A DNA stretch of 62,458 nt from Rikenella microfusus. Its GTDB lineage: Bacteria; Bacteroidota; Bacteroidia; Bacteroidales; DYQK01. The DNA is taken from contig DYQK01000004.1 in the NCBI GenBank assembly GCA_020719385.1, positions 1-62,458 of the forward strand, given 5' to 3'. Both the position numbers and the translations under genes were made by a program. This document shows positions 19,185-51,963 of the stretch, piece by piece. Position 1 is the stretch's first letter. Each line of letters begins with the position of its first letter. Under the pieces are notes generated by a model. The model was given only the letters and a program-made list of their open reading frames with translations. It was not told the origin of the DNA and made no database searches.

Positions 19185-22082
19185 ATGAAAACTTTTATTC
19201 AGGAAACTTCACTTTATCCCGATATTATTCAATATTTTCTGCAACAAGGTTTAAGTGCCATCGGCGAAACGAAAATTAAGGAATCGCAACAACGACCCGA
19301 TATTATTTTTGAATTTGCAGGCGAACAATTTATTGTCGAAGTGAAACTCGACGATGTCGAAAAAGTTTTGTCGCAGGCGGCAACGCAAGTGATTCGTTAT
19401 GCGTTTCAACTCGGAATACAAAATTGTCTCGTTTTTGTTTATCCGAAATATCTCAAAGAGCAAGAAATTTTGAATCAAGATTTTTTGCGAGAAATCGTTT
19501 GCAAAACAGAAATGTATGTGCAGGTAACGGTCTCTTCAAAAACTTGGATTGATGATTTTGAAAAAATCTCGTTGATAGATTTTGTCGAAAAATTAAAAGA
19601 AAAATTAATTAATCCGCAGTCTGAAAAAAGTATTAATTTTGCTTCGGTGGTGTTGCGAATCAATTCGCTTGTGCGAAACTTGAACGCAGCAATTTGTACT
19701 CTCGAAGAAAAATCAATTATTGACAAAATTACCGAAGAAGTTGTTGATAAACTCGATTTATTTGCCGCCATCGGTGATTTCAAAGACAAAGAAGCCGCAC
19801 AAAAACAGGTTTTGCATCTCGCAGCGTTTTTACTTTTTAACCAAATTTTGTTTTACAACATTTTTCAGCGAAAAACAGAAAATCTGGTTGCGGAATTGTT
19901 GCAAATTAAACAACTGCGCGATATGCAAAATTATTTCGAAGCAATAACCAATATCGATTATAAATCAATTTACAAAGTCAATATTCTCGGACATATTCCA
20001 AATACTTCGTTTTTTGTAGAAAAAATTAATGATTTAATTTTAGAAATAAAATTATTGCGAGCAGAATTTATCACGCACGATTTGGCAGGAAGGTTTTTTC
20101 ACGAATTAATTCCTTTCGAAGTGCGAAAAGTACTCGCCGCGTTTTATACGCACCCAAATGCCGCCGACCTTCTCGCAGGAATCTGCATCGAAAGTGCCGA
20201 TGACTCGATTATTGACCCCGCTTGCGGAAGCGGAACTTTGCTTGTCGCTGCTTATAAACGAAAACAATTTCTCTACGAAAAAGTGTACAGTTTGGCAAAT
20301 TCGAAAAAAATGCATTCCGATTTTGTCGAAAAACAAATTACAGGAATCGACATAATGCCGTTTGCAGCACATATTTCGACAATTAATCTCACGATGCAAA
20401 ACATCGGACAAATCACCAATACGGTGCGAATTGCAACACGCGATTCGCTCGAAATGGCAACACCATTTTTGCGAAAAACCAAAGACGGAATGTTGATGGA
20501 ACGCTACACCGAGACAATTCAGACACTTCTGATTCAAATTTATGACCCCAAAATTCTCAAACGCGGGGCAATAAACGCAGACGGCACAGACGGCGAAGGG
20601 TTTAGACTCGAACAATCTGATGCGGTAATTATGAATCCGCCATATTCTGACAGGGAAAAAATGCCGCAAAAATGGCTCGACAAGTTAAATAAAAATGATA
20701 CGTTGAACGTTCATTGCGGCACTCAAGTAAATTTATGGGGACATTTTCTCATTTTGGGTGATATTTTAGTGAAGGAAAATGGTTTTGTTGGGTCAGTTAT
20801 TCCGATAAGTTTTGCTCAAGGTCGTGCAACGGACAAAATCCGCGAGTTTATTTTAAAAAATCATACGATTCGCTACATCATTAAACCTGTCGGCGATTTG
20901 GCTTTTACCGAAGATTCGATGTTGAAAGATATTTTGCTCGTTACTGAAAAGAAAATTCCCGAAGCAGACGATATTTGCAAAATCGTTTATTTTAAAACGA
21001 GTATTCGCAATTTTAAAAATGAGAATATTCCCAAACTTTACACGCAAGTTTTAAAACTTGAGAATCAAGAAAATAAAAATTTCGACATTTTTACGGTTAA
21101 ACATTCGGAATTATTGGAAAATCAAAATAATTTAATGCATTTTCTTTGGGCAAAAAATTATCGCAATTACCAAATTATCGCAAAATTGTTTAAAAATATG
21201 GAGAAAAAGAAAATTGCAAAATTTCCCAAAGGAATAATGCTTGACGGTTTTCACACTGCACCCGCAGGACTTTCGGAATTAATTTTGATAACAAACCCGA
21301 TGAACGAAAAAAGTCGTCTTGGTCGGGCAAATTTGATTTATGACAAAACAGACGAAAAGGGAAATTTAATTGTACATCTGAAAAATACAGATTTTTCGTA
21401 TCAAATTCCGTCTTCGTGCTGCGAGAAAGCGTTGCGAACTTTGACAGGCGTTAAAACAATGAAACTTGAAAAAGATTTTGATTATTTTATTACAAGTTCA
21501 TTTGCTGATTTTAAAGAAATTTCCCGTTTTTCGAAATTTAAAAAAAGAGAAAATTTCGATTGGAAGTGGTTGAATAACAAAGCGAAAGGGAAAAAAGGAC
21601 ATTTTGCGTTGGCAAGCCGTTTAGGAATCGAATCGCCGAATACGTCTGTAATTGCCGTTTATTCCGATGAACCGTTTATTACCACCAATACTCAAAAAGT
21701 TTTTCCGAATCTCGATAAAAATCAAGCGAAAATTTTTTGTTTATTTTTTAATTCCATCATTGGAATAATGCAAATTTTGCTGCACAAAGGACAAGCAACA
21801 GGAATGTATGGACATATCAAAGAGCCGCATCTTGCGTTGTTTAAATTTTTAGATGTTGACAATTTGCAAAACAAAGAAATCGAAAAACTGTTGTTGGTTT
21901 TCGATGAGATAAAAAATGTCGAATTTCCGAGTATTGTCGAGCAAATCGAAAAACGTTTTCCGCAACGTGTGAAAATGGATATTGCGATTTTAGAAGTTTT
22001 AGGTTACAAAAAAGGCGAAATCAACGAATTATTACCCGAATTGTACGAGGTAATTTTGTCGGAGTTGAAAAACGAAAAATGA
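19185..22082 (+). CDS. Nuclease-N6-adenine methyltransferase fusion (type IIG-like restriction-modification protein)
   Basis: A 965-residue protein combining a putative nuclease with a DNA adenine methyltransferase. The N-terminal domain (about 1-130) shows a PD-(D/E)XK signature: D39, then E52 and K54 in EVK. The central domain carries the AdoMet-binding motif DPACGSG (344-350) and the catalytic NPPY (484-487), characteristic of N6-adenine methyltransferases. The C-terminal 300 or so residues contain no known motif and are the likely target-recognition region. Nuclease, methyltransferase and specificity region in one chain, without separate HsdR or HsdS genes, is the layout of type IIG enzymes. 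It could also be a type-I-like methylase with a degenerate nuclease. It has its own -7 box and is followed by other defence-like genes. Confidence 0.85.
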   Translation: MKTFIQETSLYPDIIQYFLQQGLSAIGETKIKESQQRPDIIFEFAGEQFIVEVKLDDVEKVLSQAATQVIRYAFQLGIQNCLVFVYPKYLKEQEILNQDFLREIVCKTEMYVQVTVSSKTWIDDFEKISLIDFVEKLKEKLINPQSEKSINFASVVLRINSLVRNLNAAICTLEEKSIIDKITEEVVDKLDLFAAIGDFKDKEAAQKQVLHLAAFLLFNQILFYNIFQRKTENLVAELLQIKQLRDMQNYFEAITNIDYKSIYKVNILGHIPNTSFFVEKINDLILEIKLLRAEFITHDLAGRFFHELIPFEVRKVLAAFYTHPNAADLLAGICIESADDSIIDPACGSGTLLVAAYKRKQFLYEKVYSLANSKKMHSDFVEKQITGIDIMPFAAHISTINLTMQNIGQITNTVRIATRDSLEMATPFLRKTKDGMLMERYTETIQTLLIQIYDPKILKRGAINADGTDGEGFRLEQSDAVIMNPPYSDREKMPQKWLDKLNKNDTLNVHCGTQVNLWGHFLILGDILVKENGFVGSVIPISFAQGRATDKIREFILKNHTIRYIIKPVGDLAFTEDSMLKDILLVTEKKIPEADDICKIVYFKTSIRNFKNENIPKLYTQVLKLENQENKNFDIFTVKHSELLENQNNLMHFLWAKNYRNYQIIAKLFKNMEKKKIAKFPKGIMLDGFHTAPAGLSELILITNPMNEKSRLGRANLIYDKTDEKGNLIVHLKNTDFSYQIPSSCCEKALRTLTGVKTMKLEKDFDYFITSSFADFKEISRFSKFKKRENFDWKWLNNKAKGKKGHFALASRLGIESPNTSVIAVYSDEPFITTNTQKVFPNLDKNQAKIFCLFFNSIIGIMQILLHKGQATGMYGHIKEPHLALFKFLDVDNLQNKEIEKLLLVFDEIKNVEFPSIVEQIEKRFPQRVKMDIAILEVLGYKKGEINELLPELYEVILSELKNEK

Positions 22083-23132: not shown

Positions 23133-23462
23133 ATGAAAAATTTAGATTCTGAAACACTTTTGATTTTGCAGCAGTTTAAAACTGCTGTTCAAGGGTTGTA
23201 TGGTTCTCGTTTTGTGAAAATGATTTTATTTGGTTCTTATGCTCGCGGCTGTGCGAATGAATTTTCTGATATGGACATTTTAATTCTCTTGACATCAATG
23301 CGTTCACCATATGTTGAGACTCGTCGAATGAGTGAAATAAAATTTCATTTTCTTGAAGAATACGAGAAAATAATTAGTACAATTCCAACGACATTATTTC
23401 GTTATGAAAAATCATTAGTCCCTTTGTATCGAATCATTAAAAACGAAGGCGTTGAAATATGA
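23133..23462 (+). CDS. MNT-type nucleotidyltransferase (MntA-like antitoxin candidate)
   Basis: A 109-residue minimal nucleotidyltransferase. The full GSX10DXD motif is present: G34-S35 ... D46-M-D48, in the segment FGSYARGCANEFSDMDI. In MNT-HEPN toxin-antitoxin modules the MNT partner inactivates the HEPN ribonuclease by adding AMP to it. The gene overlaps the downstream HEPN gene by an ATGA junction, the usual translational coupling. Copy 2 of the direct repeat ends just before its start codon and may carry its leader or operator. No separate promoter is evident, so it may be read through from the PD-(D/E)XK gene. Confidence 0.88.
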   Translation: MKNLDSETLLILQQFKTAVQGLYGSRFVKMILFGSYARGCANEFSDMDILILLTSMRSPYVETRRMSEIKFHFLEEYEKIISTIPTTLFRYEKSLVPLYRIIKNEGVEI

Positions 23463-23848
23463 ATGCAATAGAACAATATTTAAAAATGGCTGACGAAGCT
23501 TTACAAGAATCAAAATTAATGTTGCAACATCAATTTTATCGGGGTGCAGTTTCTCGTGCTTATTATGCTTCGTTTTATGCGGTGCAAGCGTGTTTAGAGA
23601 GTATTTCGGTGAATGTAAAAACTCATCAAGGAGCATTATTGATGTTTAGTAAACATTTTATCAAAACGAATCTGTTGCCGAAACAATTTGGTAAATTTTT
23701 GCAAGATAATCTTGAACAGCGTTTAATTGGTGATTATGAAATTGGGTTTAAAGCAAAACTTCCTGATGCAACAATTTCTCTTGAAAATGCAGAAACAATT
23801 GTTTCGGGAATAAAAGAATTGTTGCAAAATGAAACGACAAAACATTGA
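23459..23848 (+). CDS. HEPN-domain protein paired with MNT nucleotidyltransferase
   Basis: A 129-residue all-helical HEPN protein with the typical helix SRAYYASFYAVQACL and the conserved RLIGDY segment near the C-terminus. It overlaps the MNT gene (ATGA at 23459-23462). The RX4-6H catalytic motif of ribonuclease-active HEPN toxins is not visible: no histidine stands the required distance after a conserved arginine. It may therefore be a non-catalytic HEPN of the substrate-binding type rather than a toxin. The pair together resembles an MNT-HEPN module; toxicity is unproven. Confidence 0.85.
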   Translation: MNAIEQYLKMADEALQESKLMLQHQFYRGAVSRAYYASFYAVQACLESISVNVKTHQGALLMFSKHFIKTNLLPKQFGKFLQDNLEQRLIGDYEIGFKAKLPDATISLENAETIVSGIKELLQNETTKH

Positions 23849-24515: not shown

Positions 24516-24543
24516 CTTGTTAATTTATTTCGAAAAATTTATT

Positions 24544-26853
24544 ATGAAAATAAAAGCAAAAATTTATCTCTTTATTTTAACGACTTCTGTTGTCATTTTT
24601 GCCGCAACCATCGGGTTTATTACTCAGAATTATAAATCAAAATCGTTAATTGATGCTGAACGCATTGCGAATGCCTCGGCAGGCGAATCCGCCAATATGG
24701 CTCAAGCCATATTGAACACAGACGTTGCCATTGCGAGAACTCTACAAAATAGTTTTCAGGATTATAAAAAAGTTCCGAAAAAATTGCGAGATGAAATTTA
24801 CAAAGACATCTTAGAAAATACGTTAATCGAAAATCCTGATTATACTGCGGTGTGGCTTTCGTGGGAATTAAACGCTATTGACACCTCTTGGGAAAAAAAT
24901 TATGGACGAGTTCGATATATTTATCACCGAATAAATAACGAGATTCGTTTATTAGTCGATAGTGTAAATCTCAACGGTGATAATCCCAATTCCGATTATT
25001 ACCGCATAAAACAGACAGGCGAGGAATATTTGAGCAATCCATATTATTTTCCTTATGGAAAAGATACGATTTTTGAGTCAAGTATTTGTTCTCCAATAAT
25101 GGTTGACAAAAAGTTGGTCGGTGTTTCGGGTCTTGATGTGCCGCTGACGCGTTTTCAAAATATTATTCAGAAGGTTAAAACGTTTAAAACAGGTGATGCG
25201 TTTTTAATTGCGAACAACGGAATAATTGTCGCACACGCACAGCCTTCATTGATGGGAAAGAATATTGAGATTCTTTACTCGAATCAAAATGTTTTGCAAA
25301 ATATTCAACTTGGAAAATCGTTTTCGTTTACAAATTCTGACGAGAAGGGGGAGAATTTTGTCTCTTTTGTACCGATTTTTATTGGAAAAACGAAGACTCC
25401 TTGGTCGATGGGCGTTTCGTATTCGTTAGACGAGATTATGAAAGAAGCGAATCATAATTTTAACATTTCGATTCTCGTTTGGCTCATTGGTCAGTTAATT
25501 TTGTCAATAATGATTTTTATCATTTCGCAAAATATTACCGTTCCACTGAATCAAACAATTGGGATTCTCGGTGATTTGGACAAAGGAATTATTGACAAAA
25601 ATCGAAAGTTGAAAATAAAATCGAAAGATGAATTGGGTGAAGTTGCTCGTTCTGTAAATAATCTTGTTGATACTTTGAACGATGCGGCGAGTTTCGCAAA
25701 GCAAGTCGGGAAAGGAAATTTAGAAGTTTCTTTTGAGGTGAAAAGTGAATTTGATGAACTTGGAAATGCACTTTTGGAAATGCGAAAGAATTTGATTCAG
25801 GCAAAAGAAGAAGAGGAGAAAATGAATTTCGAGGGGCAAAAACTAAATTGGTCGCAGCAAGGAATTGCAAATATCGGCGAAATTTTGCGTCAAAATAGCG
25901 ACAATATGAAGGAGTTTAGTTATGCGATAATGAGTAATTTGGTGAAATATCTTGGTGCGGCACAGGGCGGAATGTTCATTGTGAATGATAATGATAAACA
26001 CAATATTTTTGTTGAATTGCTTGCTGCTTATGCTTTTGACCGTAAAAAAACTTTCGAATCGAAATTGGCAATTGGTGAAAATCTTGTTGGTCGTTGCGTG
26101 CAGGAGAAAGAGAGAATTTACATCACAAATTTGCCCGAAGGTTATATGTATGTTACCTCGGGCTTGGGTGAGAAGACGCCGAATGTTTTGTTAATTGTTC
26201 CATTGATTTTCAGTGAAGAGACTTTTGGGGCAATCGAAATTGCGTCTTTCAATGCGTTTGAGAATTTTCAAATTGATTTTGTCGAGAAAATTGCGGAACG
26301 AATCGCTTCGACCATCTCAATAATTAAGAAAAATGTTAAAACTGCCGAATTGTTAAAACAATTTCAAGATAAATCTGAGGAGTTGGCTGTTCGCGAAACC
26401 GAGATGCGTGAAAATTTCAAGGAATTACAAATTGCTCAGGAAAAAGCCGTTCTCAAAGAGCAAGAAACGGCAGGCATTCTGGAGGCAATAACGTCTGCTG
26501 CGTCAGTGGTTTACTATGATATAAACGGAAATATTCTCGAAATCAATGATAAAAATCTCGAAACGATGGGATATCGCCGCGAGGATATTGTTGGTCGGAA
26601 TCAAAGCGAATTTGCTCCTGAAGCGAGAAATAATCCGAAATGGTATCGCGAATTTTGGAACGATTTGCGAACAGGAATTCCGCGAAAACGAATTTTTCAT
26701 CACGAATATAAGGGCAACGAAATATGGATTTCGGAACATTATACCCCGATTCTCAAGGATGGAAAACCGTACAAAATCATCAATATCGGTTTTGACATCA
26801 CTGAAATTAAACTTCAAACACAAAAGTTAACTCAAAATACAAATCTCGAATGA
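24544..26853 (+). CDS. Membrane sensor: dCache-HAMP-GAF-PAS, no output domain
   Basis: A 769-residue inner-membrane signalling protein. The first transmembrane helix lies at about residues 6-27, followed by a periplasmic double-Cache domain (about 35-300, with PIMVDKKLVGVSGLDV). A second membrane helix (about 310-332) leads into a HAMP domain (about 335-390), then a helical linker, a GAF domain (about 440-590), a coiled coil and a PAS domain (about 640-760, IVGRNQSEFAPEARNN, ending in a PAC-like segment). The protein stops right after PAS with no histidine kinase, GGDEF, methyl-accepting or phosphatase domain. The stop codon overlaps the next start (ATGA at 26850). It must signal by protein contact, or it has lost its transmitter. 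Confidence 0.85.
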   Translation: MKIKAKIYLFILTTSVVIFAATIGFITQNYKSKSLIDAERIANASAGESANMAQAILNTDVAIARTLQNSFQDYKKVPKKLRDEIYKDILENTLIENPDYTAVWLSWELNAIDTSWEKNYGRVRYIYHRINNEIRLLVDSVNLNGDNPNSDYYRIKQTGEEYLSNPYYFPYGKDTIFESSICSPIMVDKKLVGVSGLDVPLTRFQNIIQKVKTFKTGDAFLIANNGIIVAHAQPSLMGKNIEILYSNQNVLQNIQLGKSFSFTNSDEKGENFVSFVPIFIGKTKTPWSMGVSYSLDEIMKEANHNFNISILVWLIGQLILSIMIFIISQNITVPLNQTIGILGDLDKGIIDKNRKLKIKSKDELGEVARSVNNLVDTLNDAASFAKQVGKGNLEVSFEVKSEFDELGNALLEMRKNLIQAKEEEEKMNFEGQKLNWSQQGIANIGEILRQNSDNMKEFSYAIMSNLVKYLGAAQGGMFIVNDNDKHNIFVELLAAYAFDRKKTFESKLAIGENLVGRCVQEKERIYITNLPEGYMYVTSGLGEKTPNVLLIVPLIFSEETFGAIEIASFNAFENFQIDFVEKIAERIASTISIIKKNVKTAELLKQFQDKSEELAVRETEMRENFKELQIAQEKAVLKEQETAGILEAITSAASVVYYDINGNILEINDKNLETMGYRREDIVGRNQSEFAPEARNNPKWYREFWNDLRTGIPRKRIFHHEYKGNEIWISEHYTPILKDGKPYKIINIGFDITEIKLQTQKLTQNTNLE

Positions 26854-28502
26854 AAGCAATGATTCTTGCCGCAGGAAAAGGCACAAGACTGCAACCTTTG
26901 ACGAATTTTCAACCCAAAGCACTCGTTGAGGTGAATGGAAAACCGTTAATTGAAATTTTGATTCAGCGACTGAAAAAATTTGGTTTTAACGAAATCATTA
27001 TCAATTTGCATCATTTTCAAAATCAAATTATCTCTTTTTTGGAGAAAAAAAATTTTTTCGACACAAAAATTGAATTTTCTTTTGAGGAAAATTTGCTCGA
27101 AACAGGCGGCGGGCTGCTCAAAGCATCGCACTTTTTTTTCGATAAAAAACCGTTTCTTTTGCATAATGTTGATGTTTTGTCAGAGATAAATTTGCTCGAT
27201 TTTTATGAGAAACATTGCGAAAACAAAGCATTAGCGACCTTGGCTGTACAGGAAAAAAATTCTGACCGATATTTGCATTTCGATGAACAAAATTTTTTGT
27301 GTGCCTGGCAGAATGTCTCGACTAATGAACTTCGAAAAGTACGAAATCCGAATGGAAATTTGAAAATTGCTGCATTTAGCGGAATCCACGTTGTTGACCC
27401 CAAAATTTTCGATTTGATAACGCAAAAAAATTGTTTCTCTATAATCGAAACTTATCTCAATCTTGCCCCGCAGCACAAAATTGCTCCGTATTTTTACAAA
27501 GAAAATACTCAAGATGTGGGCAAAATTTCTTCGATTTTACAAACTTCGTATCTCGTTGATTCTCCGACTTTTACAGAGATAAAAGAATCTTATGAAAAAA
27601 TTAAACCTTATATTTCTCAAACGCCAGTTTTGTCTTCGCAAAATTTAAACGAATTATTCGGTGCCGAATTGTTTTTCAAGTGTGAAAATTTTCAGAAAAC
27701 AGGAAGTTTTAAGATTCGCGGTGCAACGAATGCAGTTTTTTCGCTTTCAGAAGCCGCAGTAAAGCAAGGAATAATTACTCATTCATCAGGAAATCACGCA
27801 GCGGCAGTAGCTTTTGCAGCGAAACTTCGAGAAACGAAATCTTATATTGTAATGCCCGAAAATTCGCCTGAAGTGAAAAAAGAATCGGTGAAAAATTACG
27901 GTGCAGAAGTATATTTTTGCGAACCAACACTCTCGGCACGCGAGGAAATCTTGAAATTATGGATAGAAAAAACGGGAGCAAATTTTATTCACCCATACGA
28001 CAACGTAAAAGTAATTTGCGGACAAGGAACAATCTCGTTAGAATTTTTGGAGCAAGTTTCGAATCTCGAAATATTACTGATTCCTGTAAGCGGCGGCGGT
28101 TTATTGAGTGGAAATTTGATTGCCGCAAAAGCGTTAAAACCTGATTTAAAAATTTTTGGAGTCGAACCACAAGGAGCCAATGACGCCTTTTTGTCTTTTT
28201 ATGAGAAAAAATTGATAAAACTTGACAAAATCGAGACAATTGCTGACGGTTTGCGTGCCTCGCTCAGTCCTTTGACGTTCAATATTATCTCAAAACTCGC
28301 AGACGGAATAGTTACCGTAAGCGAAGGAGCAATTCTTTGTGCGATGTATTTGTTGGCAGAGAAGTTAAAAATTGTTGCAGAACCTTCGTCAGCAGTGCCT
28401 TTGGCAGCACTTTTGGAAAATAAACTTGAGTTTAAAAACAAAAAAGTCGGAATAATTGTCTCAGGGGGAAATATTGATTTAAAAAATTATTGGAAATTTT
28501 AA
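26850..28502 (+). CDS. Fusion of MurU-like nucleotidyltransferase and serine racemase/threonine dehydratase-like enzyme
   Basis: A 550-residue two-enzyme fusion. Residues 1 to about 235 form a sugar-phosphate nucleotidyltransferase: LAAGKGTRLQPLT (6-18), PK at 22-23, TGGG (85-88) and HNVD with metal ligand D108. The closest resemblance is to MurU, which makes UDP-MurNAc from MurNAc-1-phosphate in cell-wall recycling. From about 245 the chain is a fold-type II PLP enzyme: SFKIRG with PLP lysine K288, HSSGNH with S313 at the position of the second catalytic base of serine racemase (Ser84 in the human enzyme), the phosphate loop SGGGLLSG, and a terminal SGGN. Simple threonine dehydratases usually have SAGNH at the S313 motif, so serine racemization with dehydratase activity is favoured. 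The linker is in frame and shows no sign of a frameshift. Confidence 0.88.
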   Translation: MKAMILAAGKGTRLQPLTNFQPKALVEVNGKPLIEILIQRLKKFGFNEIIINLHHFQNQIISFLEKKNFFDTKIEFSFEENLLETGGGLLKASHFFFDKKPFLLHNVDVLSEINLLDFYEKHCENKALATLAVQEKNSDRYLHFDEQNFLCAWQNVSTNELRKVRNPNGNLKIAAFSGIHVVDPKIFDLITQKNCFSIIETYLNLAPQHKIAPYFYKENTQDVGKISSILQTSYLVDSPTFTEIKESYEKIKPYISQTPVLSSQNLNELFGAELFFKCENFQKTGSFKIRGATNAVFSLSEAAVKQGIITHSSGNHAAAVAFAAKLRETKSYIVMPENSPEVKKESVKNYGAEVYFCEPTLSAREEILKLWIEKTGANFIHPYDNVKVICGQGTISLEFLEQVSNLEILLIPVSGGGLLSGNLIAAKALKPDLKIFGVEPQGANDAFLSFYEKKLIKLDKIETIADGLRASLSPLTFNIISKLADGIVTVSEGAILCAMYLLAEKLKIVAEPSSAVPLAALLENKLEFKNKKVGIIVSGGNIDLKNYWKF

Positions 28503-51300: not shown

Positions 51301-51921
51301 TTAATTTGAAAAAACATATTTCGCAGAAACTTCGACAATATTTTGCAAAATACCTAAAAGCTTAGGTAAATTATTGATAAAATAACGTTTTTCATCAAAA
51401 GTGATTTCATTATTTTCAAATCTCAAAAAACGCCAAACATCGCCTGTCGTTGTTGCACCGAATAATACTTCTGAATAAAAATTATTCTCATCATTAAATT
51501 TTTTTGCACCGATAAGTTGTGCTGACGCTTGAATTATCCCTAAATCTAAATCTTGTTTTTTCGCTTCGGCAACGCAAAAAATCGGCGGCGAAACAAAATC
51601 GCGAATTTTTGAAAACGAAAATAAAAAATCACACTCACCATTTAAACCAAGGTCTGCATCAACATCAAGATTTAAACCCGAATAAAGTGAAACAGAAACA
51701 TTACCCTCGTTCAACAACGCAATTTCCTCTAAAATCGGAGAAACTAAACGCTCAGAACGAGATTTCTCACTATTATAACCCAATTTCTCACTCCTCAGCA
51801 ACGTTTCAGACAACCAAGCACTTGGCTCTATTAAATTTACATTCGGAAATAAATTTTTCTCACTAAATTTCACACCAAATTTATTCCCCAAATCTTTTTT
51901 TGTAAAATTGCTGTATGCCAT
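51301..51921 (-). CDS. PD-(D/E)XK-like hypothetical protein
   Basis: A 206-residue cytosolic protein. The core GECDFLFSFS (D98) followed by PPIFCVAEAKK (E119, K121) and the helix QASAQLIGAKKFN matches a PD-(D/E)XK fold, with D98-X20-E119-X-K121. This pattern occurs in a family of uncharacterised bacterial proteins; I know no assigned role. The ATG at 51921 (MAYSNFTKK) is used because the upstream in-frame extension covers a TTG-N20-TATTTTTG promoter. The leader would then be only a few bases long. It precedes trmH in the same direction. Confidence 0.7.
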   Translation of the reverse strand: MAYSNFTKKDLGNKFGVKFSEKNLFPNVNLIEPSAWLSETLLRSEKLGYNSEKSRSERLVSPILEEIALLNEGNVSVSLYSGLNLDVDADLGLNGECDFLFSFSKIRDFVSPPIFCVAEAKKQDLDLGIIQASAQLIGAKKFNDENNFYSEVLFGATTTGDVWRFLRFENNEITFDEKRYFINNLPKLLGILQNIVEVSAKYVFSN

Positions 51922-51932
51922 AAATTTTTTTA

Positions 51933-51963
51933 CAAAAATAAAAAACTTTTGCGAAATAAACAA
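51933..51963 (-). promoter_or_regulatory. Promoter giving a near-leaderless transcript
   Basis: Minus strand: TTG (51963-51961), 20 bases, TATTTTTG (51940-51933). With the usual offset the transcript would start about 5-8 bases before the ATG at 51921. Confidence 0.65.

Follow-up and report, generated by a model that had tools for sequence, protein, structure and literature searches.

The stretch analysed here, referred to as the window, comprises 62,458 nucleotides of contig DYQK01000004.1 from a draft assembly of Rikenella microfusus. At positions 26850-28502 of its forward strand lies a single frame of 550 codons, starting with ATG at 26850 and closed by a TAA that ends at 28502, with no stop or frameshift inside. 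A MurU-like nucleotidyltransferase is followed in this frame by a serine-racemase-like PLP enzyme. The ATG shares four bases (ATGA) with the TGA of the sensor gene upstream. The features are given below, with positions in the window unless a contig is named and with the basis of each assignment in brackets.

24517-26853, + strand: upstream gene, dCache-HAMP-GAF-PAS sensor protein (ORF and domains)
26850-28502, + strand: fusion gene, MurU-like nucleotidyltransferase plus serine-racemase-like PLP enzyme, 550 aa (ORF and Pfam)
26853-27548, + strand: NTP_transferase domain, residues 2-233, orthologue of stand-alone genes of about 240 aa in the same order (Pfam and alignment of relatives)
26874-26918, + strand: nucleotide-binding signature GKGTR (residues 9-13) with P22-K23 (alignment)
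27102-27113, + strand: T85-G-G-G88, part of the LETGGG motif common with MurU structures of the P. putida type (alignment)
27171-27173, + strand: D108 of N-V-D, conserved among relatives (alignment)
27513-27521, + strand: D222-V-G224, last conserved nucleotidyltransferase motif (alignment)
27534-27563, + strand: junction, residues about 229-238, where the end of the last nucleotidyltransferase helix passes directly into the beginning of the PLP enzyme with no separate linker (alignment)
27564-28499, + strand: serine-racemase-like PLP enzyme of fold type II, residues 239-550, orthologue of stand-alone genes of about 320 aa (Pfam, PDB matches, tree and model)
27711-27713, + strand: K288 of SFKIRGA, PLP Schiff-base lysine (alignment, invariant)
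27780-27797, + strand: H311-SSGNH (311-316), with S313 matching the re-face Ser84 of human serine racemase (alignment, invariant)
28164-28184, + strand: E439, A443 and D445, aligned with E210, A214 and D216 of human serine racemase (alignment)
Contig C178 of the same genome, 16510-17916 (locus L114, 1414-2820): AmgK-like kinase, APH plus PapZ_C (domain search)

Some other genes of the window were noted by eye. Two overlapping genes at 23133-23848 (+), one a small minimal-nucleotidyltransferase-like gene with a GSYARG motif and one HEPN-like, resemble MNT/HEPN toxin-antitoxin pairs, and a small nucleotidyltransferase ORF similar to that of this pair occurs on contig C55 (L115, 2378-2707). A 965-aa protein encoded at 19185-22082 (+) carries N-6 DNA methylase-like motifs (NPPY) and may belong to a restriction-modification system or to defence of another kind. 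Separately, the uncharacterised protein encoded at 51301-51963 (-) has a homologue, likewise uncharacterised, on a second contig of the genome (C178, 12068-12697), with 62% identity between them.

The first-pass annotation of this DNA had described one continuous frame joining the two enzymes, and this was borne out: NTP_transferase (residues 2-233, E 4.9e-19) and PALP (residues 252-539, E 6.9e-76) were both complete, with the PLP enzyme as a whole spanning about residues 239-550. These Pfam E values put both halves well beyond a chance resemblance. The residues it had singled out, namely D108, TGGG (85-88), K288 and S313 in HSSGNH, were all found at these positions, and sequence comparison indicated that conserved catalytic residues are retained in both halves.

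Every element of the sugar-phosphate nucleotidyltransferase signature (GxGTR...PK, TGGG, NxD, DxG) was present in the N-terminal half. An alignment of 20 relatives has 64 positions conserved in 90% or more of them; the fusion keeps 61, including G9, G11, T12, R13, K23, T85-G88, D108, D222 and G224. By analogy with sugar-phosphate nucleotidyltransferases, D108 is taken by us to be the catalytic metal-site Asp. The last helix is shortened, and the W-x-D-x-G motif is without its usual aromatic residue. The proposed pairing of a MurU-like nucleotidyltransferase with a serine-racemase-like PLP enzyme was upheld, but assignment to MurU proper was not, as the fusion scored 134 bits with the MurU equivalog NF045761 (cut-off 250). 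It was also below the cut-off of NF045697 (88 versus 370 bits). A stand-alone relative (L116) likewise remained under the NF045761 cut-off, with 131 of 250 bits. Although neither the fusion nor this relative reaches the equivalog cut-off, the gene neighbourhood and the proposed Tannerella route described next make a MurU-like role the first candidate for the N-terminal half.

Among 20 relatives, 14 had the stand-alone nucleotidyltransferase gene immediately 3' of a same-strand gene encoding an AmgK-like APH kinase with a RapZ C-terminal domain (loci L116, L117, L119-L122, L124, L125, L127 and L130-L134, each in the order kinase, then MurU-like nucleotidyltransferase), and in one more it lay 3 kb off. 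A search for AmgK elsewhere in the genome had been suggested earlier, and it did reveal an AmgK-like gene, on contig C178, which is predicted from its domains to encode a candidate anomeric sugar kinase. The kinase locus is continuous there, with another gene following the kinase and no nucleotidyltransferase remnant. AmgK and MurU have been proposed to form an anabolic MurNAc route in Tannerella forsythia, a member of the Bacteroidota (PMC7670621). Among the open-access papers listed for RapZ with AmgK or MurU, none mentions RapZ, and no described MurU/AmgK/serine racemase fusion was found in the open-access literature. As a lead on how cell-wall sugars are salvaged, the conserved pair of AmgK-RapZ-like kinase and MurU-like genes in this Bacteroidota order is of wider use than the fusion.

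In the PLP half, K288 and HSSGNH with S313 were invariant in a 37-sequence alignment, and the GGG loop was kept together with E439, A443 and D445. The aligned residues E210, A214 and D216 of human serine racemase form its divalent-cation site. The best PDB matches were 6lut from Dictyostelium (330 bits), 5cvc from maize (305 bits), 3l6b from human (268 bits) and 1v71 from S. pombe (268 bits). An AlphaFold model was confident for this half, with pLDDT mostly above 85, and not for the nucleotidyltransferase half, of which the alignment used held no relatives. Related lyases may have the same residues as serine racemase. The best-scoring curated NCBIfam models were BhcB, or beta-hydroxyaspartate dehydratase (NF045641, 388 bits), and threo-3-hydroxy-L-aspartate ammonia-lyase (NF005454, 352 bits), and the PLP half stays under their cut-offs of 550 and 452. 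In a 103-sequence tree it fell in a clade (98/89) made up mostly of sequences from the same order, far from the proteobacterial sequences, which formed a separate clade (100/100, branch 0.72) and at whose loci bhc-operon-like neighbours recur. None of the bhc partners found beside those loci (regulator, aldolase, aminotransferase, reductase) was recognisable among the neighbour genes in the window. A BhcB role was rejected, with score, tree position and gene context all against it. The role of the biosynthetic threonine deaminase IlvA was likewise rejected, given 296 of 379 bits with TIGR01127 and the absence of ilvD from the genome. Serine racemase/dehydratase and hydroxyaspartate lyase are the candidate activities of the PLP half. 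As an observation in its own right, dihydroxy-acid dehydratase (ilvD) had no match in this genome versus matches in 14 of 14 control genomes, which suggests loss of branched-chain amino acid synthesis.

It had also been stated that the two activities normally belong to separate proteins, which holds for the relatives examined. A search with the full protein in 149 genomes of the order found the halves as separate genes, with up to 57% identity for the PLP half and up to 56% for the nucleotidyltransferase half. Both halves have their closest similarity to genes of this order. No second fusion was detected in larger, overlapping samplings of the class (395 genomes), the order (393) and the phylum (395). 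In plasmid records no locus matched 80% of the query length, and viral contigs gave no match. The best 80 loci from a scan of GTDB contigs by short peptide patterns, which was not exhaustive, matched essentially the PLP half only. An apparent degenerate fusion in one genome (G727, match over query residues 188-546) was discarded, because closer tblastn analysis found the PLP half only. The nucleotidyltransferase and racemase-like genes were not neighbours in any relative examined. No synteny was found between the window's other genes and the racemase or nucleotidyltransferase loci of relatives, so the window side does not indicate which gene moved. The first-pass annotation had named two patterns that would speak against the fusion, a break in the frame at the join and homologues always encoded as two genes. 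No break exists in this assembly, but every homologue found is encoded as two genes, and the fusion is therefore at most a single-lineage event.

The single ORF is known from one draft assembly, which comprises 288 contigs at 98.1% completeness and 0.27% contamination, so two separate genes could in principle have been merged by a chimeric assembly or by an indel in base calling. An ATG at 27514 in another frame lies near the junction and is followed by stops in both other frames, so that one indel could hide two overlapping genes. The genome is the sole member of its family in the collection used, which offered no independent confirmation. Against such an error, the two complete domains meet in frame exactly at the domain border; nucleotidyltransferases encoded on their own end within about 5-30 residues of the DxG motif, and unfused racemase-like proteins start ahead of the first aligned residue by a few residues up to some tens. 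GC content is similar on either side of the junction, and codon use is similar and normal throughout. The junction has no long repeat, and its 261 bases find only short matches in the rest of the genome, with exact or near-exact ones of about 20 bases, which gives little basis for a chimeric join. Neither a second copy nor leftover pieces of either fused half were found elsewhere in the genome, and the AmgK-RapZ-like locus, which in relatives includes the nucleotidyltransferase gene, is unbroken. An artefact is thus unlikely, although it keeps a small residual chance because the fusion is known from one assembly only. The join most likely is real and represents a true lineage-restricted fusion of two inherited housekeeping genes.

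Our preferred explanation, with a probability of roughly 0.76, is a real, lineage-restricted gene fusion that arose by relocation of a MurU-like gene onto the 5' end of a racemase-like gene and yields what is probably a bifunctional product. A stand-alone gene for a MurU-like sugar-1-phosphate nucleotidyltransferase, ancestrally beside the AmgK-RapZ-like kinase gene, would have been relocated so that its frame runs into the start of an independent gene encoding a serine-racemase-like PLP enzyme. The product would be a bifunctional protein, its two active sites independent of each other. Its N-terminal half would be a nucleotide transferase for a sugar-1-phosphate, with UTP as the likeliest donor and MurNAc-1-phosphate, made by the AmgK-like kinase encoded on the other contig, as the likeliest acceptor. 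The C-terminal half would be dimeric like serine racemase and may catalyze racemisation and/or dehydration of L-serine, or ammonia elimination from 3-hydroxyaspartate-like substrates.

The frame could also be real while the PLP enzyme is additionally, or only, made from an internal GTG (V223, 27516-27518), in an arrangement of overlapping or translationally coupled genes. This GTG is in frame about 15 residues ahead of the PLP domain, and stand-alone relatives have N-termini whose lengths span such a distance. However, it codes for a residue inside the conserved DxG motif, and it is the only start-like codon between that motif and the PLP domain, with none nearer to the latter. As no stop separates the domains, the full-length product would be made whenever the first domain is made, and an internal start is regarded as decidedly improbable.

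Gene fusions often indicate functional partners, and serine racemases are known to sense ATP and divalent cations. A selected coupling of UDP-MurNAc salvage to serine/D-serine metabolism, for example through such sensing, could draw on the seemingly intact active sites of both halves and on the AmgK-like kinase in the genome, but it is most improbable given two genes unlinked in every relative examined, no common metabolite and no other sampled genome with the fusion. We also give very little credence to the further idea of a bifunctional enzyme in which turnover of serine/D-serine (or hydroxyaspartate) and UDP-MurNAc salvage regulate each other, although such mutual regulation would be a so far undescribed link from peptidoglycan recycling to amino-acid racemase metabolism. 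The earlier suggestion that the fusion ties UDP-MurNAc recycling to D-serine was accordingly not sustained, because in relatives the nucleotidyltransferase gene travels with the AmgK-RapZ-like gene and not with the racemase gene, and because the specific MurU and BhcB models both score under their curated cut-offs (134 of 250 and 388 of 550 bits). Since the two reactions have no intermediate in common, the likeliest effect of a real fusion would be co-expression and a shared oligomeric state only, rather than channelling. Together with the separate location of the genes in relatives, this leaves no support for channelling between cell-wall salvage and serine metabolism or for regulation linking the two. 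Recurrence would have made a fusion of a cell-wall-salvage-type nucleotidyltransferase with a serine-racemase-like enzyme a lead, and none recurs in the searched genomes. The unfused nucleotidyltransferase gene, moreover, has its conserved neighbour in another gene, and for both reasons we regard the fusion rather as an accident within one lineage or as a device for co-expression. It unites two enzymes of known kinds in what is probably a true single-lineage fusion.

Compared with known systems, the N-terminal half belongs to the same fold family as MurU (NF045761; PDB 8hhd and 4y7t) and has a similar length and the LETGGG and N-x-D motifs; unlike MurU, it is joined to a PLP enzyme, lies apart from the kinase gene and reaches 134 of 250 bits. 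The AmgK-like APH-RapZ kinase is the likely ancestral operon partner of this half and is here a separate gene on another contig. With the eukaryotic serine racemases (6lut, 5cvc, 3l6b and 1v71), the C-terminal half has in common a full-length match, the PLP lysine, the serine equivalent to S84 and the residues of the divalent-cation site, whereas the fusion is bacterial and carries an N-terminal nucleotidyltransferase domain.
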